A stretch of 64,000 bases of DNA from Imperialibacter roseus (GTDB lineage: Bacteria > Bacteroidota > Bacteroidia > Cytophagales > Cyclobacteriaceae), in the NCBI RefSeq assembly GCF_032999765.1, contig NZ_CP136051.1, positions 1,588,417-1,652,416 on the forward strand, in the 5' to 3' direction. The notes under the pieces were generated by a model. It ran no database searches. It saw only the letters and a list, made by a program, of their open reading frames with translations, and had not been told where the DNA came from. Shown here piece by piece: positions 27,944 to 56,590 of this stretch. The position numbers were made by a program, and so were the translations under genes. Every line of letters begins with the position of its first letter. Position 1 is the first letter of the stretch.

Positions 27944-27973
27944 CATTTAAGTTAACTGATCAATCGAGCAACT

Positions 27974-30409: not shown

Positions 30410-30433
30410 TACTTAATATACAATTGAGGAACT

Positions 30434-32854
30434 ATGCTGTTTAACTATCTGACCATCGCTTTTCGGAACCTGTGGAGGAATAAACTGTATTCTTTCATTA
30501 ATGTACTGGGGCTTGCCGTTGGTTTGGCATCGGCCATCATCGTGCTGGTATACTCCATTGACGAGCTCAGCTACGACCAGTATCATGAAAAGAAAGACCG
30601 CATTTTCAGGCTTTCGTACCAGGAACAGCGTCAGGATGACTTGCTAAGGGATGCAAGGGTTCCTTTTCCATACAAAAATATCCTCATTAGCCAGCTTCCT
30701 GAGGTAGAAAAAGCTGCTCGTATGATGAACCATGTGGCTATTGGCGGGCCAGACGAAATGGAGGTTGGCTCAGAAACCTACACAGAAACTAACCTTTTCA
30801 TTACGGACCCGGAGCTCTTCTTGATACTGGATTTTGACTGGATAGCGGGTGATGCGGGTAGTGCATTCAGAGAGTTGAATAGCGTGGTGCTTACTAAATC
30901 AATCGCCGTTAAATATTTTGGCACCACCGGGTGCCTGGGCGAAACCATCGTTTACAACAAGGGGCCACATCTTGCGGTCACAGGTGTCGTCGACGATCTG
31001 CCCCGCAACACCCACATGACGGCGGAGATTTTTGTACCCATGGCGCTCCTGCATGCCCGCTGGACTGAGAACTATCAGTACGATGTCGACCAGGACTGGA
31101 AATGGCTTGGGAGCTACACTTATATTTTACTCAAAGACAATGCTCAAATCGCTACTGTTGATGCCAAAATGCCCGGGCTCGTAGGACAGTATTTTCAGGA
31201 GGTTGACCCAGCTACATTTACTCCCGTATTTCTTCCGCTAACCGATATCCATCTGCGGTCAGAGTTCAGGTCGGAGATGAAGCCTGGCAGCAGCATGACC
31301 CAGCTGTACCTTTTCATGATCATTGCCGGGGTTATTTTGCTGGTGGCGGTGATTAACTTCATGAACCTCGCCACGGCCCGCTCAGCTAAACGAGCCAAAG
31401 AGGCGGGCATTCGAAAGGTGATGGGTGCTTATCGCAGGCAGGTGGTTACACAGTTCTTAAGCGAAGCAGTGGTGATTGCCGGACTGGGTTTGATTCATGC
31501 GCTGGTGCTGGTGAACCTCGCCTTACCGGTTTTTAACACCTTCACGGATCGCAGCTACCAGTTCTCAGATTTCATAAGCAATCCACTTGTGATGGGTGCA
31601 GCCCTGGCCATCACCGTTTTGACAGGTATTGCCTCCGGTATTTATCCCGCCTTTTATATTTCTGCTTTCAGTCCTGTTCAGGCTATGAAAAAGGACTTCA
31701 ATCCGGGGAAAACCCATCTGCTTCGCTCAGCATTGGTCACCCTTCAGTTCGCTGTTTCAACGGTATTCATCGTGGGCGTACTGGTGGTCAACACTCAACT
31801 CAATTATCTAAGGGGCAAGGAATTGGGCTTTGCAAAGGAGCGTACCATTCTCATTAACAATCGTTCGCTCAGTCTGTCGCAATACCAGTTGTTTCGCCAG
31901 ACGCTGGCTTCTAAGCCAGAGGTGAGTGATGTGTACATGGGCACGATGCCTGGCATGGGTGTTTGGGGCAATACGGTCGTTCCGGAAGGCTTCGATGAAA
32001 ATGAGGGTGTGAGTGTCTCCATGATGTATGGTACGGCCAATTTTGCCGATTTCTTTGGCGTGGGTATCGGGCAGGGAAGAGGGTTTCTCGACGAAGTCGA
32101 CCAGGATGAGGATGTTACCCGGCAGTCGTTTTTGATAAACAAAACACTGGCAAAAAAGCTTGGCTGGGAGAATGATGCTGTGGGCAGGGAAATTCACTGG
32201 CTGGGAGGCTCCGACAACAAAACATTGCAAAAAGGGCAGGTCGTTGGCGTGATAGATGACTTCCACTACAATTCGCTTCACCGTCCGATAGGCTCCCTGC
32301 TTGTGGTAATGGCTAATTGGGGTGGTATTGCTGTTAAGCTTTCCGGCGATAGTTATGGTTCAGGCCTGTCGGAAGTGCAGACTGCGTGGAATGAGATGTT
32401 TCCTGACAAGCCGTTTCAGTACTCCTACCTCGATCAGGACATTGCCGAGCAATACCTGAAAGAAGAGCAACTCGGAAAGCTTATCTCGTGGTTTACATTG
32501 CTGGCAGTGTTTGTCTGCTGCATGGGGTTGTACGGGCTGGTGGCGTTTGTGGTAGAGCAGCGCCGCAAGGAGTTTGCGATAAGGAAAACGCTGGGAGCCA
32601 CCATCAGGCATATTGTTATGCTTATCTCCTCTCAAATGCTGAAAACAGTGCTGATCGCTTCGGTGGTAGCGATTCCGGTAGCTGTGTATTTGCTGAGCAA
32701 TTGGCTTGATACTTTTCCCTATCGAATCCAGCTCAGTCCACTGTTTTTTGTACTGGCAGCGTTGATTTCGGTGATAGTGATGCTGGCCACTATGGCGTCA
32801 AATGCTTACAGAGCGGCCACCATGAATCCGGTCGATTCCCTTAGATCAGAATAG
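30434..32854 (+). CDS. FtsX/MacB-type ABC permease 3 (unit 1)
   Basis: An 806-residue paralogue, 24 bases after permease 2. The first coupling motif is RAKEAGIRKVMGA; the second has drifted to RRKEFAIRKTLGAT. The second periplasmic domain contains an acidic loop DEVDQDEDVTRQS. The start MLFNYLTIAFRNLWRNKLY fits the conserved N-terminal amphipathic helix of the group. Confidence 0.9.
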   Translation: MLFNYLTIAFRNLWRNKLYSFINVLGLAVGLASAIIVLVYSIDELSYDQYHEKKDRIFRLSYQEQRQDDLLRDARVPFPYKNILISQLPEVEKAARMMNHVAIGGPDEMEVGSETYTETNLFITDPELFLILDFDWIAGDAGSAFRELNSVVLTKSIAVKYFGTTGCLGETIVYNKGPHLAVTGVVDDLPRNTHMTAEIFVPMALLHARWTENYQYDVDQDWKWLGSYTYILLKDNAQIATVDAKMPGLVGQYFQEVDPATFTPVFLPLTDIHLRSEFRSEMKPGSSMTQLYLFMIIAGVILLVAVINFMNLATARSAKRAKEAGIRKVMGAYRRQVVTQFLSEAVVIAGLGLIHALVLVNLALPVFNTFTDRSYQFSDFISNPLVMGAALAITVLTGIASGIYPAFYISAFSPVQAMKKDFNPGKTHLLRSALVTLQFAVSTVFIVGVLVVNTQLNYLRGKELGFAKERTILINNRSLSLSQYQLFRQTLASKPEVSDVYMGTMPGMGVWGNTVVPEGFDENEGVSVSMMYGTANFADFFGVGIGQGRGFLDEVDQDEDVTRQSFLINKTLAKKLGWENDAVGREIHWLGGSDNKTLQKGQVVGVIDDFHYNSLHRPIGSLLVVMANWGGIAVKLSGDSYGSGLSEVQTAWNEMFPDKPFQYSYLDQDIAEQYLKEEQLGKLISWFTLLAVFVCCMGLYGLVAFVVEQRRKEFAIRKTLGATIRHIVMLISSQMLKTVLIASVVAIPVAVYLLSNWLDTFPYRIQLSPLFFVLAALISVIVMLATMASNAYRAATMNPVDSLRSE

Positions 32855-32870
32855 GAATAAAAAAATACCA

Positions 32871-35306
32871 ATGCTAAGAAACTACTTCATCATCGCCCTT
32901 CGCCACCTGAGCAGAAACAAGGTTTTCTCGCTTATCAATCTGGTGGGCCTTTCTATTGGCCTGGCGACCTTTCTCGTTATTTTCATTTTCGTTTCCTTCC
33001 ATAAAGGATTCGACCAGTATCATGCCGATGCCGACAGGATTGTACGGCTGGGCATGAAAGTGAAGCTGGGTGGAGAGCTTATTACCATGCCATCGGTGGG
33101 GGCGCCAGCTGCCACTGTTTTTGAACAGGAAATCCCTGAAGTGGAGGAAGCAACAAGGATTTATGGGCGGCCTTATTTCAAATTTGATATCACCCTCGGT
33201 GACAAGAACTTCCCGGGAGAGCAGGGGATGTATGCCGATCCTGATTTTTTCAGTTTCTTTTCTATCCCGGTCATCGCAGGTGATCCTGCGACAATCCTCT
33301 CGTCCCAAAAGTCCGTCGTACTTACACAGAGCATGGTGCAGAAGTACTTTGGCACAAATGCCACTCCTGCGTCGGTAGTTGGCAAGATGCTGGAGGTGAA
33401 AGAAAAAGGCACCGTGCAGGTCACAGGCGTATGTGCCGACGTGCCGGCGCAAACCCATTTCGATTTCGATATTTTGCTATCAATGGACATGAACCCATTG
33501 AGTGAAAGCCACTACTGGATGGCCGACGGATTCTACACCTTTGTAAAGCTGGCCAAAGGAGGTTCGGTGGAGAGCCTCTATGACAAATTCCCCACATTTA
33601 CCGACAAATACATTGGCCCGGAAGTACAGGAATTCCTGGGAGTGAGCTTCTCGGAGTTTTTGGCCTCCGGAGGTAGTTTTGAGTTCAATACCATGCCGTT
33701 GGAGGACATTCATCTCTGGTCGCATGCTGAAAATGAGTTGGGCACTAATGTCAACGGCACTTATATCAATGTGTTTCTTGGCATTGGACTGCTCATCCTG
33801 TTGCTGGCTGTGATCAATTTCATCAACCTGTCGGCGGCGTCCAATATACAACGCCTCAAAGAAGTAGGAGTGAGGAAGGTAATGGGAGCCCGGCGAGCTG
33901 CCCTGGTCATGCAGTTCATGACTGAAGCTGTGCTCATTACTTCGGTGGCTTTCGGCCTGGGCTTCACGTTGCAACAGGTGGCCACACCGTTGATCAGTCA
34001 ATATTTCGGTGTGAGTATGGGGCAGGAAGGCACGAGTCTGGTGTGGTACATTGCTGTTGCCTGCAGTGGTAGTCTCCTGATAGGGATGGCGGCTGGCCTG
34101 TATCCGGCGCTGCTGCTTTCAACCACAAAAACAATCAGTGCCCTCAAAGGCCAAACATCAGCGACCAGTTCAAAAGGCCGGATGAGAAATGTGCTGATGG
34201 TGTTGCAGTTCAGCATTACCATCGGTTTACTCTCGTCGGTGCTGGTGATATTGGCACAGGTACATTACCTGCAAACCAAACCTCTTGGTTACGAAAAGGA
34301 CCAGATCATGCTGATTGAAGATGTTGATCTCCTGGGGGAAGGCCGAAATTCGCTGCGCCAGGAATTGGAAAAGCTTCCGGGGGTGGAGGCAGTCTCGATT
34401 ACCGGCTACGTGCCCTCCGGCCCGAGGGAATTTGAACGAAACGCCATGCAGGACCTGACCCTCGAAAACCCTGAAACGCACCGGGTAACGCACGTAGGCG
34501 TCGACGAGCATTTCCTTAGCGTGATGAACATGAAATTGCTGTCGGGTCGCAATTTTTCCAGGGAGTATGGAGACGAGGCTTCCAATGTTATCATCAATGC
34601 ATCCATGAGCCGTAGCTTTGGCTGGGACGTGGCGTCAGGGGAAGCGCTTGGGAAGACAGTGACGGAAGTGGACCACAATGAGAACTTTACGGTAATAGGC
34701 ATTGTCGACGACTTCCACATTTTCAATATGAATGAAGCCATCAGCCCATTCTTTTTCAGGTATTCCTCCAACGGTTTTATGGCGGCCGTTCGGTTCGATA
34801 GCGACAAGTTAGCCCTGCTCAATGATGAGCTACCTAAGCTTTGGAGTGAGTTCTCCCAGGAGCCCATGGGCCAATCCTACCTCAATGAGTATTTTGTCAG
34901 GAACTTTGAAGAGGAGAAAAAAATAAGCAGCCTCTTCGAAGTATTCACGGTACTGGCCATTGTCTTGTCCGGCATGGGGCTTTTTGCCATTACGGCATTT
35001 GTCACCCACCAGCGCACCAAAGAAATCGGCATCAGAAAAGTGCTGGGGGCCGAAGGAATTCGCTTGTTTGTGATGCTGTCGAAAGGGGTGGTGGCTATGC
35101 TGCTCATCGCAGCCTGCTTGTGCATTCCTACCGTGTATTATGGCATGGAGCAATGGCTGCAAAGCTATCCTTACCGGATCAGCGTGCCTGCCTGGGCTTT
35201 CGGATTACCGGTACTGGGCATTGTTGCATTCGCCCTGCTGGTGAGCGGCTGGCATATCCTCAAAGTGATCAGGATCAACCCGGTGGAGTCGCTGAGGGAT
35301 GAGTAG
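32871..35306 (+). CDS. FtsX/MacB-type ABC permease 4 (unit 1, last gene)
   Basis: An 811-residue paralogue only 16 bases after permease 3, with coupling motifs RLKEVGVRKVMGAR and RTKEIGIRKVLGAE. It ends INPVESLRDE at the point where the permease array is interrupted by repeats and the accessory islet; the next permease lies 7 kb downstream. No clear terminator was seen after the stop codon, although the hairpin repeats from 35333 may serve as one. Confidence 0.9.
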   Translation: MLRNYFIIALRHLSRNKVFSLINLVGLSIGLATFLVIFIFVSFHKGFDQYHADADRIVRLGMKVKLGGELITMPSVGAPAATVFEQEIPEVEEATRIYGRPYFKFDITLGDKNFPGEQGMYADPDFFSFFSIPVIAGDPATILSSQKSVVLTQSMVQKYFGTNATPASVVGKMLEVKEKGTVQVTGVCADVPAQTHFDFDILLSMDMNPLSESHYWMADGFYTFVKLAKGGSVESLYDKFPTFTDKYIGPEVQEFLGVSFSEFLASGGSFEFNTMPLEDIHLWSHAENELGTNVNGTYINVFLGIGLLILLLAVINFINLSAASNIQRLKEVGVRKVMGARRAALVMQFMTEAVLITSVAFGLGFTLQQVATPLISQYFGVSMGQEGTSLVWYIAVACSGSLLIGMAAGLYPALLLSTTKTISALKGQTSATSSKGRMRNVLMVLQFSITIGLLSSVLVILAQVHYLQTKPLGYEKDQIMLIEDVDLLGEGRNSLRQELEKLPGVEAVSITGYVPSGPREFERNAMQDLTLENPETHRVTHVGVDEHFLSVMNMKLLSGRNFSREYGDEASNVIINASMSRSFGWDVASGEALGKTVTEVDHNENFTVIGIVDDFHIFNMNEAISPFFFRYSSNGFMAAVRFDSDKLALLNDELPKLWSEFSQEPMGQSYLNEYFVRNFEEEKKISSLFEVFTVLAIVLSGMGLFAITAFVTHQRTKEIGIRKVLGAEGIRLFVMLSKGVVAMLLIAACLCIPTVYYGMEQWLQSYPYRISVPAWAFGLPVLGIVAFALLVSGWHILKVIRINPVESLRDE

Positions 35307-35332
35307 CTGCGGCACTGCTCCATTGTCCCGTT

Positions 35333-35562
35333 GGGGTATCTCGCAGAGGATCCTCTCTCCTCCTCCCATTGGGGTCTCTCGCAGAGGACCCTGATGGGGT
35401 AGGCACGACACAACGTTGAACCAAGCCCCGCTGTTCTTCCTATTTCGCTCTCTCGTCTATTTTTCCAATGCGGTCTCTCGCAGAGAACCCTGATGGGGCA
35501 AGCGGACACTAAATACCACACAACGTTGAACCCCTGCCGCCCTTCCTATTTCAATTTCCCTC
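35333..35562. repeat. Tandem composite repeats with TCTCGCAGAG hairpins
   Basis: Hairpin A at 35333-35354, B at 35365-35399 and C at 35465-35498 share the core TCTCGCAGAG. B and C have outer arms that begin CC-AT and end ATGGGG. Both B and C are followed by ACACAACGTTGAACC and then CTTCCTATTTC, so a composite unit of roughly 90-100 bp is present twice in the same direction. A partial copy without the hairpin lies at about 36612-36660. Confidence 0.7.
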
Positions 35563-35772
35563 AGTTGCCATATTCAACGATTTGACTCGCTCTGGTCAAA
35601 AGATATCTTCACTTCGTAGCGATATAGCTCCACAACTGAACGACATTGGATTCAGCGTATATACACAACCCCCAGAGATTAAATGGTATATACGTCATTC
35701 ACATAAAGATGACACGAATCGACTGCCACAGATGGCGGGTTGTGTCCAAACTTTGAAATAGCTACTTTTGTT

Positions 35773-35784
35773 GTCTAACTAGAC
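35773..35784. promoter_or_regulatory. 12-bp palindrome before DUF4160 gene
   Basis: GTCTAACTAGAC nearly mirrors itself (GTCTA...TAGAC with a two-base centre AC... making 5-bp arms). It lies 8 bases before the likely TTG start and could be the autoregulatory operator for the XRE protein encoded by the second gene. Confidence 0.35.
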
Positions 35785-35792
35785 AATATCCT

Positions 35793-36026
35793 TTGCCAAC
35801 ATTAAAGATTATTGATTCGGTCAAGGTTGACGTTTATTCACGTGAACATCCGCCTCCACATTTTCATGCCATTTATGCAGAGTATGAAGAACTGATTGAA
35901 ATCGAAACATTGGCAACATATGCTGGCAGTTTGCCAAGAGCCCAAAGAAGCAAGGTGATCGAATGGGCAAAAACCAGACAAGACTTTTTGATGGGTAATT
36001 TTAATCGTTTGAATCCAGGATTATGA
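35793..36026 (+). CDS. DUF4160 protein
   Basis: A 77-residue protein with the family signature REHPPPHFHAIYAEYE and a conserved end VIEWAKTRQDFLMGNFNRL. The only suitable start is TTG at 35793. DUF4160 genes are usually followed by a DUF2442 gene, as here, and the pair is often counted among putative toxin-antitoxin or mobile accessory modules; the biochemical activity is unknown. It overlaps the next gene by 4 bases (ATGA). Confidence 0.82.
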   Translation: MPTLKIIDSVKVDVYSREHPPPHFHAIYAEYEELIEIETLATYAGSLPRAQRSKVIEWAKTRQDFLMGNFNRLNPGL

Positions 36027-36544
36027 GAAAGAAATTAGGCATCCCAAGAATTATCAAAATACAGAAAGTGAACGGGTTAACGATTCAGTGTATGTTCAAT
36101 AATGGGCAAAGCAGAATTCTTGACTTTGACGGGATATTTAAACAATGGAAAATTGGAGAAAGCGATGTTGAATATCCGCTGCTATCACCTGAAGAGTTCA
36201 AAAAAGTAGAACTTAGGAATTTCACTCTGTCCTGGCCTAATATTCCCGTTACACTCCTGTCTGAAGACGGAAGCGAAGTCCGCCATCCATACGAGTTGAG
36301 TCCGGATGAGCTTTACATGCTAAGTGAACCTGCCGAAGCTTCTGATTCGCAAAAATTTGGCAGTTTGATCCGTACAGCAAGGATAAAAGCTGGATTGACC
36401 CAGGAGCAGCTCGCTCAAAGAAGTGGAACTTCCAGGTTCTACATTTCAAGACTGGAGAACAACCGAACAGATGTAGAGCTTTCAACATTTCGAAAGATTG
36501 TAGAGGCTGGACTTGACAAGCATTTCAAGCTTATAATTGAGTAA
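36023..36544 (+). CDS. DUF2442 domain fused to XRE helix-turn-helix
   Basis: 173 residues: DUF2442 at about 5-90 (LTIQCMFNNGQSRILDFDGI, then PLLSPEEFKKVEL) and a Cro/CI domain at about 112-165 (IRTARIKAGLTQEQLAQRSG, TSRFYISRLENN). The fusion probably makes it the DNA-binding, autoregulating half of the DUF4160 module. It is coupled to the upstream gene through an ATGA overlap. Confidence 0.85.
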   Translation: MRKKLGIPRIIKIQKVNGLTIQCMFNNGQSRILDFDGIFKQWKIGESDVEYPLLSPEEFKKVELRNFTLSWPNIPVTLLSEDGSEVRHPYELSPDELYMLSEPAEASDSQKFGSLIRTARIKAGLTQEQLAQRSGTSRFYISRLENNRTDVELSTFRKIVEAGLDKHFKLIIE

Positions 36545-37017
36545 TGAACGCCATAATGTTGCCATCTCCGCTTTGCTAAACCTCAGAGACTTTAATGCCT
36601 TTTTTGCTATTGCCGCATAACGTTGAACTATTCCCTACGGTTCTTCCTGTTTCAATTCCCCCCATCCATTTTCCCATTTTCCATTACTCACTACCAAGGA
36701 TTTGAAACAGAGTATAAAAATCTCTGTATAAGGCGACCAAAGCGGGTATCTGGTAGAAAGCCTCCCCGAAATGATAGGATATATGGTGTAAAAAATATAT
36801 GTTTATTAGGGGAGAATGACACTGTTGTTTTCCTGTCCGGGCTACTTGCTTCTTTGTAGAGATAAACTCAAATGAGGGAGGTGGCTGGGGTTTATTGATT
36901 CGTTGCATTCCAAGCTAAAAAGCCGACTGCACAAATAGCATATTTGGGTTTGGCCGATACAATGCTAGATGCTGAAAATTAAAGAAGCAAGTTTTTGCCA
37001 TCGCCGGTAAAAACGAA
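36545..37017. other. Intergenic region upstream of TIR-caspase operon
   Basis: No gene is supported in these 473 bases. It includes the partial AACGTTGAAC repeat (about 36612-36660) and AT-rich sequence. A possible promoter for the operon is CATATTTG near 36938, one base off the Bacteroidota -7 consensus TAnnTTTG, about 80 bases before the first ATG. That is a weak call. Confidence 0.4.
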
Positions 37018-37512
37018 ATGAATGAAAACAATGCAAAAAAATCGGATATGTGGCCAGTAATAATTGGTGCAGGTGCAGTTGCTCTTCTTCTTAAAGCACT
37101 ATTCGAAGATGAGGAAGACTCGGGCAAGGAAATAAAGAAGCGCATCTTTATCAGCTTTGCAGTTGGAGATTCGAAATACAGAGATTATTTGGTGAAACAA
37201 GCCAAAGACGAACGGTCTCCTTTTGCCTTTGTAGATATGTCAGTAAAGCAACCTTGGGAAGAGGATGTTTGGAAACATAAATGCCGTACCAAAATTAAAT
37301 CCTGCGATGGCATGATAGTGCTGTTAAGTAAAAACACATGGCATGCCAGCGGCACACGTTGGGAAATAAAATGTGCTAAAGAAGAGGGCTTACCTGTAAT
37401 CGGTATGCATATTAAAAAGAATAATCAAGGAGCAACTCCACCAGAATTGTACGGCAAAAAAGTAATCACTTGGTCTTGGGACAATTTAGCCAAGGTTATT
37501 AAAAAGATGTAA
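37018..37512 (+). CDS. Membrane-anchored TIR-like (DUF1863/ThsB-type) protein
   Basis: 164 residues: one N-terminal membrane helix (about 12-28, VIIGAGAVALLLKALF), a short acidic linker, then a TIR-like fold from about 40. The fold shows the DUF1863 pattern RIFISFAVGDSKYRDYL, SPFAFVDMSVKQPWEE, then MIVLLSKNTWHASGTRW and Glu116 in RWEIKCAKEEG, the position of the catalytic Glu of NAD-consuming TIR enzymes. ThsB of Thoeris belongs to this family and makes a cyclic-ADP-ribose isomer after phage infection. First of four tightly packed genes; the next begins 4 bases on. Confidence 0.8.
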   Translation: MNENNAKKSDMWPVIIGAGAVALLLKALFEDEEDSGKEIKKRIFISFAVGDSKYRDYLVKQAKDERSPFAFVDMSVKQPWEEDVWKHKCRTKIKSCDGMIVLLSKNTWHASGTRWEIKCAKEEGLPVIGMHIKKNNQGATPPELYGKKVITWSWDNLAKVIKKM

Positions 37513-37516
37513 GAAT

Positions 37517-38110
37517 ATGGGTATTTACAGTAGTTCAGAGTTGAAAAATATTGCCTCAAGCAAAGGTAGGGTTTTTGAACAAAGAACTTATAGTGCGCAA
37601 AATGTTTCCATTAATACAAAATTCGATATTTTTTTATCCCATAGCTTTTTAGATAAACAAGAAGTACAAGGACTTTATCAAGAGTTGACCGATTTTGGGT
37701 ATTCTGTTTATGTTGATTGGATTGTAGATCCGCACCTTGATCGAACGAATGTAACTAAAGAATCAGCCTCACTAGTGAGAAAGAGAATGAAGTGTTCAAA
37801 GTCACTTCTACTCGCTATTTCAACAAATGCTTCAATGTCCAAATGGATTCCTTGGGAACTTGGTTATGTTGATGGAAGTACGAGTAGATGTGCAGTAATT
37901 CCAGTATCTAAAGAAGGTGTCCCTCCTAAGTCCTTCAAAGGCAAAGAATACCTTTCTTTATATCCATTTATTAAAAAAGTCCCAATAGGAAGAACTAATG
38001 AAGATAAACTCTGGGTGATAGCAGACGAATATGACTACTCACAATTCGATTCATGGTTTTTAAATGGAATAATTCAGGAAAATAGAGGCGTAAACATTTT
38101 CAACTTATGA
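37517..38110 (+). CDS. TIR-domain protein
   Basis: 197 residues; a TIR domain spans about 34-150 with FDIFLSHSFLDKQEVQGLY, a BB-loop region GYSVYVDW and SKWIPWELGYVDG, in which Glu114 fits the NADase catalytic Glu. The N-terminal 30 residues are short and without a known domain. It overlaps the caspase-like gene by 4 bases (ATGA), so the TIR and protease are made in step. In type IV Thoeris a TIR enzyme makes a signal that switches on a caspase-like protease; the layout here fits that scheme. Confidence 0.85.
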   Translation: MGIYSSSELKNIASSKGRVFEQRTYSAQNVSINTKFDIFLSHSFLDKQEVQGLYQELTDFGYSVYVDWIVDPHLDRTNVTKESASLVRKRMKCSKSLLLAISTNASMSKWIPWELGYVDGSTSRCAVIPVSKEGVPPKSFKGKEYLSLYPFIKKVPIGRTNEDKLWVIADEYDYSQFDSWFLNGIIQENRGVNIFNL

Positions 38111-39078
38111 GAAAAGCACTTGTAGTAGGTATCAACAAATATCCAAATGCAAATTTATTTGGTTGTATCAATGATGCTTCTGCTTTTGGTAATACATTGG
38201 AAACAAATGGTGATGGCTCACCCAATTTTGATGTGCGGTTGCTAACAGATGTTCCAACAAAAGGAGATTTAAAAGGCCACATAAAAAATCTGTTTGCAGG
38301 AGATTGTGAAACTGCACTCTTTTATTTTTCAGGTCATGGATTTTTTGATGAAACAGGTGGTGGAATAATCGTTACCCCTGATTTTGCAGCAAATGACGAA
38401 GGAATTTCAATGGATGATATTCTTCACGTTGCAAATGAATCCAAAGCACAAAATAGAGTAATCGTTTTAGACTGTTGTCATTCGGGGTCTTTTGGTAATC
38501 CGAAAATCAATGGAGGAAGGAATGCTCAAATAGGTGAAGGTGTTTCGATTTTAACCGCAAGTAAAGCAGATGAAGCCTCAGTTGAAATTAATGGCCATGG
38601 CGTTTTCACAAACCTCCTTTTAGATGCAATGCAAGGCGGAGCAGCAGATTTAAGAGGCCATATAACGCCAGGAAGTATTTATTCATACATAGACCAAGCT
38701 CTTGGCCCATGGGATCAAAGGCCAGTTTTTAAAACCAACATTACTCGTTTTACATCCCTCAGAACCGTCTCGCCACAAGTTTCACCTGAGATTTTGAGAA
38801 GGCTGAACCAGTATTTCGCTTCCCCAGGAGACCATTTTAAACTCGACCCTTCCTTTGAATTCACCAACGACCCAGCAATAGAACACGATTTTGTTGAACC
38901 ATATGCGGATGAAAAGAACGTTTCTGTATTCAAAGATTTACAGAAATTAACAAGCGTTGGGTTAGTGTTACCTGTAGATGAACAGCATATGTATTTTGCG
39001 GCAATGCACTCAAAAAGTTGTAGACTGACGGCATTGGGTTACCATTACTGGCGACTTGTAAAAGACAAGAGAATTTAA
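38107..39078 (+). CDS. Caspase-like protease (C14, p20 domain)
   Basis: 323 residues. The caspase fold covers about 1-215: ALVVGINKYPN, catalytic His77 in YFSGHGF and Cys124 in LDCCHSG, then VSILTASKADEAS. Thus the catalytic pair is complete. Residues about 225-323 form a second region (HDFVEPYADEKNVSVF, ending LTALGYHYWRLVKD) that may be a small ligand- or partner-binding domain; I do not recognise it. No signal peptide, so it acts in the cytoplasm. Placed between TIR genes, it is the probable effector that kills the infected cell when activated by a TIR-made nucleotide. Confidence 0.87.
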   Translation: MRKALVVGINKYPNANLFGCINDASAFGNTLETNGDGSPNFDVRLLTDVPTKGDLKGHIKNLFAGDCETALFYFSGHGFFDETGGGIIVTPDFAANDEGISMDDILHVANESKAQNRVIVLDCCHSGSFGNPKINGGRNAQIGEGVSILTASKADEASVEINGHGVFTNLLLDAMQGGAADLRGHITPGSIYSYIDQALGPWDQRPVFKTNITRFTSLRTVSPQVSPEILRRLNQYFASPGDHFKLDPSFEFTNDPAIEHDFVEPYADEKNVSVFKDLQKLTSVGLVLPVDEQHMYFAAMHSKSCRLTALGYHYWRLVKDKRI

Positions 39079-39093
39079 TCATCAAAAAAAACT

Positions 39094-39465
39094 ATGGCAG
39101 ATAAAAAAGTAGTATTCGTTGCCTTTGCAATTGAAGACAAAGCACAAAGGGATCTTTTAAAAGGTCAATCGCTTAACACAAAATCCCCATTCGAGTACGT
39201 TGACATGTCAGTCAAAGAACCGTATGAAGAGGACTGGAGAGATAGAGTGCGAACAAGAATTAGGCGTTCAGACGGAGTATTGGTTTTAGTGAGTAAAAAC
39301 TCCTTTAAATCGACCGGTCAAAAATGGGAAATCCAATGTGCAAGAGAAGAAGGTAAGAAAGTCAGAGGCTTTTGGGCATACGCAGATGACCGTACTGACT
39401 TAGAGGGTGTTTATACAAGAGCATGGACTTGGGACAATATTAAAGACTTTATTGATTCACTATGA
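39094..39465 (+). CDS. Soluble TIR-like (DUF1863/ThsB-type) protein
   Basis: 123 residues and essentially one domain: VVFVAFAIEDKAQRDLLKGQ, SPFEYVDMSVKEPYEEDW, VLVLVSKNSFKSTGQKW and Glu79 in KWEIQCAREEG. It is a clear paralogue of the first gene in the operon (same SPF-x2-VDMSVK-P and WEI-x-CA-EEG blocks) but lacks the membrane helix. Two diverged copies in one operon suggest separate sensing roles or a heteromer. It begins 15 bases after the caspase stop codon. Confidence 0.8.
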   Translation: MADKKVVFVAFAIEDKAQRDLLKGQSLNTKSPFEYVDMSVKEPYEEDWRDRVRTRIRRSDGVLVLVSKNSFKSTGQKWEIQCAREEGKKVRGFWAYADDRTDLEGVYTRAWTWDNIKDFIDSL

Positions 39466-39750
39466 AATGTCATCTCTAATCATCCATACATATTGGCAAG
39501 TCAGCCGTAGTCTCCCGTTAGCAGAGACCTGCCTAAAAGTATCGCTGCCGCAAAGCACGGACAAAAAGAAAGCACAGGTATGCGGCATTATACAAAAGCA
39601 ATAGCGGGAGAAGTAGTAAATCAAGGTCTTTGCATTTAATAAACTTAGGTAGTGACGGAAAGGTAATCCCCATGAAGTCCGCTACTGCTTTTGTTTATTT
39701 TTATGTAGGGCTATCCAACGAGGCCTTAGAATCGGACTTTGTTATTTCTG
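39466..39750. other. Intergenic region after TIR-caspase operon
   Basis: No gene is supported. Short open frames exist (for example across 39630-39887) but run through the decayed promoter copy and have no protein-like character. No clear terminator with a T run was seen. Confidence 0.4.
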
Positions 39751-39890
39751 ATCGTTTCAAAACAAAACGCTTTCTTGTCTCATTTTGGAGCATTTTGCTG
39801 CCGGTTCTGTATTGTAATTTCCTTATTTTTAGCGATTTGATATTTGGTAGGTTTTGTTATGTCGAGGTCGTCGGATCGAAACACTAAAAG
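39751..39890 (+). promoter_or_regulatory. Decayed copy of the permease sigma-54 control region
   Basis: About three quarters of these 140 bases match 42151-42291 in order, with a single one-base gap. The paired activator sites are still readable (GTTTCAAAACAAAAC at 39754 and GTCTCATTTTGGAGC at 39777, 23 bp apart), but the -24 element has become TTTGGTAG and the -12 element is lost. It ends with ACACTAAAAG, the leader just before the permease 5 ATG, and then switches abruptly into a truncated HigB frame. It seems to be the remains of a lost permease promoter. Confidence 0.75.
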
Positions 39891-40139
39891 CAAGTTGACC
39901 GTGTTCCAGAGAAATTCTTAAAGCATTTAACGGGAATAGGTAGCCTTTACGAAATCCGAATTGAACATCAGTCAAACATTTATCGGATTTTTTGCTGTTT
40001 TGACGAAGGCCAGCTTGTGGTGCTTTTCAATGGGTTTCAGAAAAAGACACAAAGAACACCGCCAAAGGAAATAGATAAAGCAGTTCGGTTGATGAAAGAG
40101 TATTTTGACAGCAAAAGAGGAAGTAATGAAAGACTATAA
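39888..40139 (+). pseudogene. HigB-like toxin, N-terminus missing
   Basis: The frame reads KQVDRVPEKFLKHLTGIGSL, then YEIRIEHQSNIYRIFCCFDE, LVVLFNGFQKKTQRTPPKEI and ends at 40139. This is the C-terminal two thirds of a HigB/RelE-type mRNA interferase. A stop codon precedes it immediately and there is no start codon, so the first 45-50 residues are gone. The break coincides with the junction to the decayed promoter copy. It overlaps higA by 14 bases, as in intact HigBA operons. Confidence 0.8.
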
Positions 40140-40425
40140 GAACATCAAGACATTTGATGAGTTGATTGAACTCGAACACGGAAAAATCGGAACGGAAAAC
40201 CGAAGCAAATATGAAGAGGGGGCGCAGATGTTCATTGTGAGTGAAATGCTAAAAGCAGCCCGCAAAGAAGCCAAACTGACACAGGAGCAACTGGCCGAAA
40301 GATCAGGAACAAAGAAGAGTTACATTTCTAAGCTTGAAAACGGCAAAGTAAATATTCAACTCTCAACATTGATCAGAATTTTTGAGCAAGGATTGAACAG
40401 AAGAATTGGACTGACTTTCTTGTAA
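40126..40425 (+). CDS. higA: HigA-like XRE antitoxin
   Basis: 99 residues from the ATG at 40126 (MKDYKNIKTFDELIELEHGK). The helix-turn-helix is at about 45-95 (LKAARKEAKLTQEQLAERSG, TKKSYISKLENGK) and the end RRIGLTFL is usual for HigA of Bacteroidota. It binds and represses its own operator in known systems. Its toxin partner is truncated, so it may be an orphan antitoxin able to neutralise related toxins. Confidence 0.82.
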   Translation: MKDYKNIKTFDELIELEHGKIGTENRSKYEEGAQMFIVSEMLKAARKEAKLTQEQLAERSGTKKSYISKLENGKVNIQLSTLIRIFEQGLNRRIGLTFL

Positions 40426-40498
40426 CACTCTCATTACATATGGCGCAAGCGTATGGTATCGCCCCTGGGTTAGTTCGACTAGGGAAGTGAAGCAACGC

Positions 40499-41731
40499 TT
40501 AAACAACCATTCGAGCTTTAATCAGCTTTATATTATTTTCCTTCACACCGAAGGTTCTTGCCAACTCTTCCCAATGCGAAAGTGCTTCAGCTGTCTGATC
40601 GATGATGGCTGTTAGGTCAGTGCTGGAAAGGTGGGTTTGCTTCCCAAGCTGGATCAAATGAGCCATGGAGGGGGCCTGGCCTTCACCCATCACCATCGTG
40701 CTTTGCTGCCCCCCAGGGCCGGAAGAGAAGGTCAGGTCGTAGGCAGGGGCGAGCGTCCAGTCTCCTGTTTGATCCATCAAATACGAGAAATTTTTTCCAT
40801 GGTCATCTCTGTTGTGAGCCAGCACATTGAAAACAGCCAGCCTGAACATTTTCTCCACTTCTCTGGCGTCCTTGGTGAGGGCCAGCGTGAGCTCAAGCAA
40901 GTTTTCATAATCCAGCGCCGGTACCCTGAAATTCGCATGCAGCAGTCCGCTAGCGGTGTGCATATGCCAACGCCGACCGGGCGAGCAGTCGAAACGTTTG
41001 ACTGCAAAATATCCCGGGCCTTTATCAGCAGGAAAGAGGTAAGTGGCTGGCATTATCAGCCCCGCCTGTCGTGCCATCTGGGAGTAGACGTACTCAATGG
41101 CTCCCGCATCATCCCCGTCGTTGACGTTCGGAAACTTCACCATCCAATGCTCGTAGCCATCAGGCAGCTGGTGTTTTCCATGAATAATATTTTTTTTCTC
41201 CCCATCCAATCCCACCACTACTTTTGGCCGTGCACCTGCCGAGGAGCCTCCTAAGTCAATCAATTCCTTTAAGACCTCACTAGCCTCCCCATGCAGCACG
41301 TCCCGGGTCTGGTTGGCCAGTTTATTCAGGTCAAGGGGGCTATCGGAAGCCTGGCTGCTGTGATCGGGTGCATACACCAAAGCCCCAAGACCGGTTGCGC
41401 CTACCAGGGCCAGCCGGTCTAAAGGTGAAAATTCGGCAGGCAGTATACCCTGGCTTTTTAAAAAGCGATCCACGAGCAGGCGCCCCCAGCCGTCAGGCAG
41501 GCTGTCGTCAAACACGCCATGCAACCCCTCAAAAAGAAATGGGTCGAAGCTCTGAAGCCCTGTTTGAAGGGGTAGTTTGAAAGGAGAAATGTGCAAGTCG
41601 AGTGCAAGAAACGACTGGTCGTACTCGAAGTAAACTCTATTGTCCCGGATGGCCAGTCGCCCTATTGGAATCGTGTCGCTGGCAAACTGAAGGCCAACTT
41701 TTATTTCCTTCACCGGTTTGTAACTGCTCAT
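40499..41731 (-). CDS. hipA: HipA-like serine/threonine kinase toxin
   Basis: 410 residues. N-terminal HipA domain (about 5-110, with DDSLPDGWGRLLVDRFL) and kinase domain with LIDLGGSSAGARPK (the Gly-rich, Ser-containing loop), HWMVKFP, catalytic AHNRDDHGKNFSYL and APAYDLTFS (the Asp-x-Thr metal site). HipA kinases phosphorylate a tRNA synthetase or similar target and stop growth. It overlaps hipB by 4 bases and appears complete. Confidence 0.9.
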   Translation of the reverse strand: MSSYKPVKEIKVGLQFASDTIPIGRLAIRDNRVYFEYDQSFLALDLHISPFKLPLQTGLQSFDPFLFEGLHGVFDDSLPDGWGRLLVDRFLKSQGILPAEFSPLDRLALVGATGLGALVYAPDHSSQASDSPLDLNKLANQTRDVLHGEASEVLKELIDLGGSSAGARPKVVVGLDGEKKNIIHGKHQLPDGYEHWMVKFPNVNDGDDAGAIEYVYSQMARQAGLIMPATYLFPADKGPGYFAVKRFDCSPGRRWHMHTASGLLHANFRVPALDYENLLELTLALTKDAREVEKMFRLAVFNVLAHNRDDHGKNFSYLMDQTGDWTLAPAYDLTFSSGPGGQQSTMVMGEGQAPSMAHLIQLGKQTHLSSTDLTAIIDQTAEALSHWEELARTFGVKENNIKLIKARMVV

Positions 41732-42033
41732 TTTTTCCAGCCTCGTTTGGGTGTGGCAGCCTTTTGGCCCTTCAGCACATCGTCAATGGAAGAGAATTGA
41801 GGCTGACTGCTGGTTGTTGCCTCCAATATTTTCTCCAGGCAACCGAGGGCCATGCAAAGCTTAATGAATGAAAGGAGGGATAGTACACCTTTTTGCTCAA
41901 ATTTTCGAAGCGTTGGCAAACTTACGTCTGCTCTTTCCGCTAAACCTTCCTGAGTCAGTCCCTGCGCCAACCGGAGCGCCTTGATGTTTACCGCAAGCCT
42001 TTGCTGTGCTTTAGGAATCGATATAAATAACAT
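41728..42033 (-). CDS. hipB: HipB-like XRE antitoxin
   Basis: 101 residues, Cro/CI helix-turn-helix at about 15-70 (IKALRLAQGLTQEGLAERAD, VSLPTLRKFEQKG) and a basic flexible C-terminus (GQKAATPKRGWKK) that in HipB proteins helps to hold the toxin. It is the first gene of the leftward hipBA pair, divergent from permease 5. A 7-bp dyad in the AT-rich region upstream is a candidate operator. Confidence 0.87.
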   Translation of the reverse strand: MLFISIPKAQQRLAVNIKALRLAQGLTQEGLAERADVSLPTLRKFEQKGVLSLLSFIKLCMALGCLEKILEATTSSQPQFSSIDDVLKGQKAATPKRGWKK

Positions 42034-42059
42034 TATTGTATTAATTAATAGATAAATAT

Positions 42060-42086
42060 ACTAATAAATAATATGATAGTATTAGT
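42060..42086. promoter_or_regulatory. Candidate HipB operator
   Basis: ACTAATA (42060-42066) and TATTAGT (42080-42086) form an inverted pair spaced by 13 bases in a very AT-rich stretch 27-53 bases upstream of hipB. The position fits an autoregulatory operator; the call is by position and symmetry only. Confidence 0.4.
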
Positions 42087-42153
42087 TAAAAATCACTAAA
42101 TTGATTGAGTTCTCCGGGAACCCGCTCAAGTCATTAAGCAATTAACTCCAATC

Positions 42154-42298: not shown

Positions 42299-44722
42299 AT
42301 GCTTTTCAACTACTTCAAAATAGCCTGGCGCAACATCACCAGAAACAAACTTCTCACTTTTATTAATGTGGGCGGGCTGGCAGTGGGCATCGCCACTAGT
42401 TTGCTGATTATGCAATATGTTGCTTTTGAGCAAAGCTACGACCAGTTTTTTGAAAACAAGGAGCGCATATTCAGGGTTGACTGGAGCTTCAATCAGGAAG
42501 GTGAGACGGCGTTGGCACTCCCCAAGGCAGCATCAGGTGCGGGCCCTAAGCTCGTTGCCGAATTTCCGGAAGTAGAAGCGATGACGAGGATTTACAAAAC
42601 CTTTAGCCCTGTGAATGTCAGCTATCAGGACAAGGTTTTTAATGAGGCTAAAATCCTGTTCGCCAGCCAGGAATTCTTTACTGTGTTTTCCTTGCCGCTG
42701 GTTTCAGGTGAAAGGAAAAGTGTGCTGGACGGACCCAACAAGGTAGTGCTGAGCCAGTCGGCAGCCGATCGCTACTTTCCGGGCACTGATCCGCTCGGCA
42801 AGATGCTTCGCCTCAAGGAGGGTGACAATTGGGACATGAGCCTGCAGGTGACAGGTGTGATGGAAGATATGCCCGCCAACACCCATATGGAGGGTGATTT
42901 GATTGTTTCCTTCGACACCTATATCCATCCCGGTTCCTATGCCGATGGAAGTTTTTACTGGGTAAACTTTTACACCTACCTGCTCACCGCCCCCGGTACC
43001 ACAAAAGAGCAGCTGAATGCCAAATTGAATCCATGGTTGGCTGCGAACGAGGCTTTCAACGATTCGAGTGAAGGAGACAAACCCACCGCAAGCGTGATGC
43101 CGCTGGAGGACATTCACCTGCACTCGCACTATACGCAGGAAATGAAGGCCAACGGAAGCTACCTGGTGGTCTACATCTTAATGGTGGCTGCGCTGATGAT
43201 ATTGGTTATTGCCTGGCTCAACTATATCAACCTGAGCACTGCGAAGGGGTTGGAAAGGGCCAAAGAGGTGGGCATAAAGAAGGTAGTGGGTGCCAGTAGA
43301 GGGCAACTGATTGGGCAATTCTTATTGGAAGCCAGCTTGACCAATGCCATGAGCATCGCTCTCGCTTTCACACTGTTTCAGTTTGCGCAGCCACTTATCC
43401 ACCTGGTGCTTCCCGCGCAGGCAGTGTGGAGCATTGTCTTTGAAGGTGAGTTGGTTTGGCAAATGTTTGTTGTACTGCTCGTTGGGGCTTTTCTGTCCGG
43501 ATACTACCCCGCCGTCGTTATTTCGTCCTACAAACCTGCCCATATCCTTAAAGGACGGGCTACACATTCTTCAGGAGGTCACCTGCTAAGAAGAATGATG
43601 GTTGCGCTTCAATTTGGGCTTTCGCTAACGCTACTGGTATCCACCTTTACTGTAAAAGACCAGGTAAGTTTTATGCTCAATCAGGATCTTGGATTGAATA
43701 TCGATCAGGTAGTGGTGGCCATGGCACCCAACGCCAGTGGAAAAGTAAAACCGGAACAGCTGGATCAGTTTAGAGCGGCTGTGCTGGCCCGGCCAGCGGT
43801 GACAGGTTTTTCGGCCACACGGATGATGCCAGGCGAGGCTATTTTTTATAATACAGCCGGGCAATCATTTGGAAGTAGAGGCTTCAATAACAACTATGGG
43901 CAGGGAGGCATAGACTCCTATTTCATACCATTTATGGAAATAGAGTTTTTGGCTGGCCGCAATTTTGACCCAACCATGGAAACCGATAATAGAGCGGTGG
44001 TGGTAAATCAATCAGCGTTAAAGCTGCTCGACTTTGTAACGCCTGAGGAGGCTATTGGTAAAAAGATATTTTGGATGGATGACGACTTTGGAGACTGGAA
44101 TGTCATCGGTGTGGTGAAAGATCACCACCAATTTGGCTTGGCCAACGCTATTGAACCTATTATTTATTACCAGGAAGAGGAGGCACCATCCTATTTTTCC
44201 TTTAAGGTGTCGGCTGCAAACATGAAAGAGTCAATTGATCAACTCAGCGAAGTGTATGGCCAGTTCTTTCCCGGCAACCCCTTCGACTACCATTTTTTGG
44301 ATGAACAGTTTGATGTGCAATACGATGCGGATCGTCAGGTGTTGCAGGCTTTCAGTGCCTTCTCATTAGTTGCCATCATTATCGCCTGTCTGGGGTTATT
44401 TGGGCTGGCGTCTTTTGAAGCCATTCAGCGCACTAAAGAGATCGGGATCCGGAAAGTGCTGGGAGCTTCCTTTTCTGGCTTGGCAGTGTTGTTCTCCCGC
44501 CGGTTCCTGGGTTTGCTGCTAATCAGCGCTGCATTTGCTCTGCCGCTTTGCTACCTGCTGATGGACGAGTGGCTGAACAGTTATGCCTTCAGGATGGAGC
44601 TTGGCTGGCTGGAATTTGTGCTGCCGGTTGGCATTTTGTTCGGGATATCAATGATTACTTTACTCTACCATACCCTGAAAACTGTGAGAATTAATCCTGT
44701 GGAGGCATTAAGAAGTGAATGA
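42299..44722 (+). CDS. FtsX/MacB-type ABC permease 5 (unit 2, first gene)
   Basis: An 807-residue paralogue starting MLFNYFKIAWRNITRNKLLT. Coupling motifs are RAKEVGIKKVVGAS and RTKEIGIRKVLGAS. It is the first gene of a five-permease unit controlled from the sigma-54 promoter at 42244. Its second periplasmic domain carries an aromatic and Gly-rich loop FGSRGFNNNYGQGGIDSY not seen in the other copies. The gene is followed by an 80-base gap, the longest within the unit. Confidence 0.9.
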   Translation: MLFNYFKIAWRNITRNKLLTFINVGGLAVGIATSLLIMQYVAFEQSYDQFFENKERIFRVDWSFNQEGETALALPKAASGAGPKLVAEFPEVEAMTRIYKTFSPVNVSYQDKVFNEAKILFASQEFFTVFSLPLVSGERKSVLDGPNKVVLSQSAADRYFPGTDPLGKMLRLKEGDNWDMSLQVTGVMEDMPANTHMEGDLIVSFDTYIHPGSYADGSFYWVNFYTYLLTAPGTTKEQLNAKLNPWLAANEAFNDSSEGDKPTASVMPLEDIHLHSHYTQEMKANGSYLVVYILMVAALMILVIAWLNYINLSTAKGLERAKEVGIKKVVGASRGQLIGQFLLEASLTNAMSIALAFTLFQFAQPLIHLVLPAQAVWSIVFEGELVWQMFVVLLVGAFLSGYYPAVVISSYKPAHILKGRATHSSGGHLLRRMMVALQFGLSLTLLVSTFTVKDQVSFMLNQDLGLNIDQVVVAMAPNASGKVKPEQLDQFRAAVLARPAVTGFSATRMMPGEAIFYNTAGQSFGSRGFNNNYGQGGIDSYFIPFMEIEFLAGRNFDPTMETDNRAVVVNQSALKLLDFVTPEEAIGKKIFWMDDDFGDWNVIGVVKDHHQFGLANAIEPIIYYQEEEAPSYFSFKVSAANMKESIDQLSEVYGQFFPGNPFDYHFLDEQFDVQYDADRQVLQAFSAFSLVAIIIACLGLFGLASFEAIQRTKEIGIRKVLGASFSGLAVLFSRRFLGLLLISAAFALPLCYLLMDEWLNSYAFRMELGWLEFVLPVGILFGISMITLLYHTLKTVRINPVEALRSE

Positions 44723-44768
44723 GCTCGCAAACTAGCTGTTGTGTTTCAACTCTTAGCTAATGGTCGGC

Positions 44769-44803
44769 AACCAATAACCAATAACTCATAACCAATAACC
44801 AAA
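44769..44803 (+). repeat. Heptanucleotide tandem repeat abutting a start codon
   Basis: Five 7-bp units in a row: AACCAAT, AACCAAT, AACTCAT, AACCAAT, AACCAAA, the last one merging with the ATG at 44803. They occupy the place of a ribosome binding site. Change in unit number would alter the leader length by 7 bases without touching the coding frame. Confidence 0.85.
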
Positions 44804-47214: not shown

Positions 47215-47238
47215 ATTGATAAAGAAAAAATATCAGTA

Positions 47239-49596: not shown

Positions 49597-49623
49597 GTTG
49601 TTCAATCACTAAACCAACCAACC

Positions 49624-51885: not shown

Positions 51886-51896
51886 ATATTTAGAGC

Positions 51897-56491: not shown

Positions 56492-56543
56492 GTTTTCAGT
56501 CGATACACCCATTTAAATGGCTAATAATCAATCAATTGCAATT

Positions 56544-56558
56544 TGGTACGACCTCTGC
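56544..56558 (+). promoter_or_regulatory. Sigma-54-type -24/-12 promoter, permease unit 3
   Basis: TGGTACG (56544-56550) and CTGCT (56555-56559) match the sigma-54 consensus with correct spacing. It starts 67 bp after activator site 2, the same distance as in unit 2. Predicted start near 56569, about 22 bases before the ATG at 56591; this excludes the upstream in-frame start at 56543. Confidence 0.72.
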
Positions 56559-56590
56559 TCATGCGAATGAGTTACGTCAATGTTTTCAAT

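Follow-up and report, generated by a model that had tools for sequence, protein, structure and literature searches.

Three TIR-type genes beside one caspase-like protease gene: a probable sensor-expanded operon of Imperialibacter roseus that fits type IV Thoeris

The window analysed here, a stretch of 64,000 nucleotides from Imperialibacter roseus (contig NZ_CP136051.1), carries a compact run of four forward-strand genes in which a single caspase-like protease is encoded among three TIR-type proteins. The order TIR-type, TIR, caspase, TIR-type, first described in an earlier note on this DNA, is borne out at the same positions by open reading frames, Pfam and PADLOC. The genes and the variable stretch that holds them are as follows.

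37018..37512, + strand: gene 1, ThsB_TIR-type protein of 164 aa with an N-terminal hydrophobic segment (predicted membrane anchor) and Glu116 (Pfam PF08937, 1.5e-12)
37517..38110, + strand: gene 2, canonical TIR protein of 197 aa with Glu114, an optional cassette in the interval between gene 1 and the caspase (Pfam TIR_2, 5.1e-7; PADLOC ThsB PDLC00422, 4.9e-49)
38107..39078, + strand: gene 3, caspase-like protease of 323 aa with His77, Asp122 and Cys124 (Pfam Peptidase_C14, 2.8e-17; PADLOC 'caspase', 3.6e-21)
39094..39465, + strand: gene 4, soluble ThsB_TIR-type protein of 123 aa with Glu79 (Pfam PF08937, 6.1e-8)
36813..40487, no strand: variable stretch carrying the operon, where the same-genus genome G028 has instead 1831 bp with a 516-aa gene

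Spacings of +4, -4 and +15 bases separate successive genes, as the earlier note had stated, and from them we infer a single transcript; a promoter scan gave no excess over shuffled sequence (8 found, 9.2 expected). The arrangement is not a product of chance, since dN/dS lies between 0.03 and 0.10 in all whole-gene pairs computed against near relatives, with dS partly near saturation.

Gene 1 had been described as a membrane-anchored DUF1863 protein. Its ThsB_TIR (DUF1863) assignment stands by Pfam, and it does carry one N-terminal hydrophobic segment, with a mean Kyte-Doolittle value of 2.14 over 17 residues from residue 13, against maxima of 0.71, 1.02 and 0.78 in genes 2, 3 and 4. The anchor itself is a prediction only, because the structural model has low confidence at the N-terminus (pLDDT below 50 across most of residues 1-23). 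A Foldseek search with the TIR part gave 8fz9 (a B. cereus TIR, TMt 0.82) as the best match, followed by EcThsB 8wcf and BcThsB 6lhy, and there was no NCBIfam family match to gene 1. Used as lone queries, neither gene 1 nor gene 4 found a match in a PDB sequence search; ThsB-type matches appeared when an alignment was used instead. Gene 2 matches PDB 8btn_B at 5.3e-43. The glutamates reported at positions 116, 114 and 79 of the three TIR-type proteins are all present. Of the 61 ThsB_TIR sequences scoring above 100 bits, among which are both from the window, 60 have the glutamate that corresponds to Glu116 of gene 1; in the remaining one, a broken copy, this position falls in a gap (L126; homologous loci are cited by L number). 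Glu114 of gene 2 is kept in 11/12 sequences, window included; in the other, a canonical TIR at L018:10534-11028, the catalytic Glu is replaced by Gln.

A tree of 69 ThsB_TIR sequences, in which few columns leave many forks unsure, puts gene 1 in a clade of 8 rows (support 100/84) that is separate from the 11-row clade of gene 4 (support 100/100). The latter spans Bacteroidota, Pseudomonadota, Verrucomicrobiota and Myxococcota. Since each gene belongs to its own supported clade, we reject the idea that genes 1 and 4 are recent tandem duplicates.

Relatives of the caspase were collected in a GTDB genome scan with an 11-sequence alignment, and the best 80 of 479, picked by similarity to the window caspase, were analysed together with the best 17 (L123-L139) of 67 loci returned from viral contigs in IMG/VR. 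His77, Asp122 and Cys124 are identical in 98/98 caspases (window, best 80 of 479 genome loci and 17 IMG/VR loci), which agrees with the earlier statement that His77 and Cys124 are intact. The structural model of gene 3 is confident (pLDDT 94.1), and its best Foldseek match is the MALT1 paracaspase (E 1.2e-12, TMq 0.54). A caspase-like paralogue at L018:7493-8503 (46 bits to the family HMM), which has lost the His and Cys motifs in the alignment, lies beside an intact caspase, and the Gln-bearing TIR mentioned above is found near this pair.

The C-terminal region of the caspase had been taken for an unrecognised addition at this locus. It is instead a feature of the family, because the best 80 of 479 loci align over essentially the full length, from residue 1-3 to residue 318-323 of the query, and we therefore reject it as an oddity of the window. 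The domain comprises about 100 residues (about 223-323), is conserved across the family and gave no Pfam match in 10/10 members tried. In the model its secondary structure runs helix-strand-helix-strand-helix, and to the eye it looks winged-helix-like, with no library match behind that resemblance. The possibility that it is a mobile receptor borne by other effectors was also rejected, as 9/9 matches among 192 host-family genomes (own genome included) were known caspases.

TIR partners of the caspase were counted with HMMs for the two TIR kinds, on the same strand and within 2.5 kb, weak matches (below about 45 bits) being included; loci with a single partner or none were rechecked on all open reading frames. 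Among the best 80 of 479 relatives, 71 have such a TIR-type gene, 68 have a ThsB_TIR-like partner (above 100 bits in 44) and 8 have a canonical gene-2-type partner above 200 bits; at least two TIR genes are present at 20 loci and at least three at 2. The same pairing is seen in 16 of the 17 best IMG/VR loci. Pfam places several of the weak matches above its cut-off, as ThsB_TIR at L060, L092 and L106 and as TIR_2 for one at L085. The usual layout, across many phyla and also on plasmids, is one small ThsB_TIR gene with a caspase of this family. This reverses the earlier picture of ThsB-type genes as added partners: it is the canonical TIR that is the rarer addition.

Nine of the best 80 loci have no same-strand TIR gene by the two HMMs. 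Two of them nevertheless adjoin a gene with a Pfam match above cut-off, L088 with TIR_2 and L114 with ThsB_TIR, and beside L083 and L063 there are TIR matches short of the cut-off; at L099 a TIR-like gene lies on the opposite strand, L089, L090 and L093 resemble L088 by eye only, and L078 has no TIR among its neighbours. The association was also seen in an even phylum sample of 395 genomes including our own, which was left out of the test: a gene-1-like TIR (E 1e-10) is present in 4/4 genomes with the caspase and in 4/390 without it (p = 7e-8), and the two genes are neighbours in all 4. A survey of 196 host-family genomes, which found 4 others with the caspase, at 8 places, speaks against it. 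A TIR neighbour is lacking at four of these 8 places (the HMMs detect none over 13 kb at L013, L014 and L016, and none adjoins the first caspase of L018), and a fifth, L017, has only a weak TIR-like match on the other strand.

Some further neighbours were noted, the first two kinds by eye. In place of a TIR gene, the divergent caspases of L013, L016 and L018 have in front of them a LuxR-type regulator and a long gene that is TPR-like and may encode a kinase. An unannotated family of about 160-180 aa with the motif 'FIS[HR]P.P' near its start adjoins caspases at L038:6950-7438, L091:9953-10447 and L138:7338-7886; it has no Pfam match, its L091 copy has no PADLOC match, and it is possibly a further sensor or an enzyme making an NAD-derived signal. 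At L039:6008-7731, behind a type II restriction-modification pair, a gene-1-type TIR is accompanied by another ThsB_TIR gene and by a TIR protein that carries an 8xMP membrane domain as a fusion. No caspase is present among the open reading frames shown there, and sensor types like those of the window operon may in this case serve a membrane effector.

Against this background, the window operon is a sensor-expanded version of the layout of a caspase with a single TIR, and close relatives differ in which TIR genes they hold. Algoriphagus faecimaris (L043) has genes 2, 3 and 4 at 77.2, 93.2 and 89.4% protein identity to the window, and ahead of gene 2 only a stub of gene 1, a 15-residue match to its end. 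A Marinilabiliales MAG (L044) has genes 1, 3 and 4 at 87.2, 89.5 and 83.7% identity; gene 2, present in L043, is absent here, since gene 1 ends one base ahead of the caspase start. L038 has TIR, caspase and ThsB_TIR in the order of genes 2-3-4, the last gene being of a different clade, and Lacibacter luteus (L050) combines two ThsB_TIR types with a gene-2-type TIR and the caspase. The earlier note had proposed a search for the four-gene order in other genomes. What recurs is the TIR-caspase pairing, and all four kinds occur in one run in Nonlabens xylanidelens (L091), in the order gene-1-type, gene-4-type, caspase, two other genes, gene-2-type. Either of two kinds of TIR can be the only one found beside a caspase: the gene-4 type at L037, L110, L120 and L122 (all open reading frames checked), and the gene-2 type at L015, save for a weak match 5 kb off. 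At synonymous sites, gene 2 is more diverged from L043 than gene 3 (p 0.011) and gene 4 (p 0.0036), and gene 1 is less diverged from L044 than gene 3 (p 0.0006); the other three of the six comparisons made were not significant. This suggests that the TIR genes and the caspase have separate histories.

The operon occupies a site of exchange. In G028 the flanks at 34292-36812 (91.2%) and 40488-42104 (91.6%) are collinear with the window, and the middle is unalignable, about 3.7 kb of the window being replaced; the operon therefore lies in a swap site, with an HTH gene on one side and a HipA-type pair on the other. The replacing gene in G028 matches PADLOC REase_II (1.2e-9) and DrmC (2.6e-7) and is PLD-like by eye. 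Within the window, a HigB/RelE-like frame at 39885-40136, with no obvious start codon, precedes an HTH gene (40105-40425) and appears by eye to be a toxin-antitoxin remnant. A long array of FtsX-like permease genes, also recognised by eye, surrounds the swap site at 25475-35306, 42299-54155 and 56543-59059. A tRNA-linked island was considered and rejected, the 64-kb window having no tRNA.

Homologues elsewhere are found in mobile and defensive settings. Among plasmids, 43 records match the caspase at E 1e-40, of which 22 are predicted to be conjugative, and annotated TIR and caspase pairs are present in all three plasmids inspected, from E. coli, Shewanella and Proteus, the last near Tn7-like transposition genes. 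In keeping with what the earlier note supposed, defence genes do lie near homologues: PADLOC matches were obtained for 6 of 8 hand-picked neighbours of caspase or gene-1-type homologues, by several types (restriction-modification, DISARM-like, NsnA/PD-T4-2, AbiU and one weak Argonaute-type). The operon very probably serves in anti-phage defence, of which the defence neighbours, the plasmids and the viral contigs are indirect signs.

Type IV Thoeris consists of a TIR protein and a caspase-like protease (Rousset et al. 2025, as cited in PMC12847820 and PMC13373217), and the protease is activated by N7-cADPR (PMC12847820). Our locus fits this published system: in both, a TIR gene adjoins a caspase-like gene on the same strand, the catalytic residues are intact, and the contexts include mobile elements and defence genes. 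The earlier proposal of a type IV variant holds for the TIR-caspase coupling and the catalytic residues; the putative identity with type IV is judged from layout, and the PADLOC copy used dates from 2023 and predates the description of type IV Thoeris. Unlike that system, the window has three TIR genes of three lineages for one caspase, and one predicted membrane anchor. The E. coli plasmid pCREC-591_1 (L190) likewise has a small TIR gene 9 bases ahead of a caspase with 48.6% identity over residues 1-319, but in contrast to the window only one annotated TIR.

Several TIR sensors on one effector are also described for type I Thoeris in PMC11204291 and PMC12578639. Where Bacillus Thoeris has several ThsB proteins, these most likely recognise different phage markers, one apiece (PMC11204291). 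In a staphylococcal pair, the capsid protein is bound by ThsB1, which in turn activates ThsB2, and of the two active sites just that of ThsB2 is required (PMC12578639). Type I ThsB is distantly related to genes 1 and 4, but the type I effector is the SIR2-SLOG protein ThsA whereas that of the window is a caspase. Genes 1-4 have no SIR2 or SLOG match above cut-off (gene 4 has a cpYpsA-SLOG match of 17.6 against a cut-off of 26.2), and no ThsA effector, whether SIR2-SLOG or TM-macro, was found above cut-off in these genes or the four flanking genes scanned, on which ground we reject membership of type I or type II. Contrary to the earlier suggestion of a new layout, the idea that many sensors may serve one effector is not new, because type I Thoeris already embodies it; the caspase version with a predicted membrane-anchored TIR is probably a new variant. 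No description of a three-TIR caspase system was found in the literature searched, which excluded the paper defining type IV Thoeris and most subscription papers.

In our view the operon is probably a system of the type IV Thoeris kind that acts by abortive infection and has an enlarged set of sensors. Each of the TIR proteins would sense some phage product and, through its conserved Glu, would consume NAD+ to make a cyclic ADP-ribose-type signal that turns on the single caspase-like protease, which would then cleave host proteins and so stop the phage. The likeliest candidate receptor of this signal is the family-wide C-terminal domain of the caspase. The core of the system would be the caspase with gene 4 or its equivalent, gene 2 would be an optional second sensor, and gene 1 a membrane-anchored extra TIR acting beside, perhaps through, another TIR. 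In favour of this reading are the recurrent TIR-caspase pairing, the invariant or almost invariant catalytic residues, and the purifying selection on what near relatives without gene 1 or gene 2 retain; the caspase loci with no adjoining TIR, in the host's family and among the best 80 of 479, and the missing Glu in the canonical TIR of L018 weigh against it. The suggestion that three NAD-consuming enzymes feed one protease is unproven, because the conserved Glu is necessary, not sufficient, and because the staphylococcal pair needs one TIR active site only.

A tentative alternative, which we regard as possible, is that genes 1 and 4 form one heteromeric sensor, in which anchored gene 1 binds the trigger and recruits or activates gene 4 as the sole signal maker, gene 2 being a separate input. 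The gene-1 type is never the sole TIR in the 7/7 informative loci (window, L012, L039, L044, L050, L091 and L119; L039 is counted although it has no caspase, and L071 starts at a contig end and is uninformative). Its partner is of the gene-4 clade in the window, L044, L119 and L091 and is 72% identical to gene 4 in L012, and ThsB1/ThsB2 of staphylococcal Thoeris offer a precedent (PMC12578639). However, Glu is kept in gene 1 and its relatives, gene 4 occurs without gene 1 (L037, L043), the partners in L039 and L050 are other TIR types, and seven loci are a small sample. The never-alone pattern is compatible both with gene 1 as an extra sensor and with gene 1 as the activator of another TIR; we prefer the reading in which one caspase receives several inputs, gene 1 perhaps working by way of gene 4.

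It seems unlikely that the NAD-derived product differs from one TIR protein to another, so that the caspase integrates chemically distinct signals, or that some of them just deplete NAD+ as a second arm. The best-matching TIR models in Pfam and PADLOC do differ between gene 2 and genes 1 and 4, and one TIR clade can yield differing products (PMC13142454). Yet for every TIR type seen the neighbouring caspase belongs to a single family and has the same kind of C-terminal domain, and for this reason one shared signal is the simplest reading. An elaboration that we put forward only as a speculation, and doubt, is a three-input death switch: the membrane-anchored TIR would work only by activating a second TIR, the canonical TIR, of another lineage, would feed the caspase independently, possibly with another NAD-derived molecule, and surface and cytoplasmic alarms would be integrated via the family-specific C-terminal domain.

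That the additional TIR genes have no role, as hitch-hikers or as duplicates in decay, is very improbable. A. faecimaris retains no more than a stub of gene 1, and stop codons interrupt a gene-1-like copy in G472; but gene 1 has a dN/dS of 0.10 and gene 2 one of 0.08, their Glu residues are conserved, and genes 1 and 4 do not stem from a recent duplication. Membership of the two-gene EACC1-caspase membrane system, in which an EACC1 gene with one TM helix precedes a caspase, is largely refuted and has hardly any probability left: the caspases are of related families, NCBIfam caspase_w_EACC1 matches gene 3 at 4.4e-30 and gene 1 has a single N-terminal hydrophobic segment, but the gene 3 score of 104.7 is below the curated cut-off of 140, Pfam and the fold both mark gene 1 as TIR-like, no EACC1 match was obtained, and the window family has one constant C-terminal domain where the paper on that system (Kaur et al. 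2020, PMC7159879) gives up to 50 alternatives.

These loci amount to a natural experiment on the gain and loss of sensors by an immune caspase, in which proteases 89-93% identical have differing TIR sets. Two questions can be put to the test with them: do dissimilar TIR lineages arrive at a common signal, and does a membrane-anchored TIR sense by itself or activate a partner? They also point to the conserved, unnamed C-terminal domain of the caspase as the candidate receptor of that signal.
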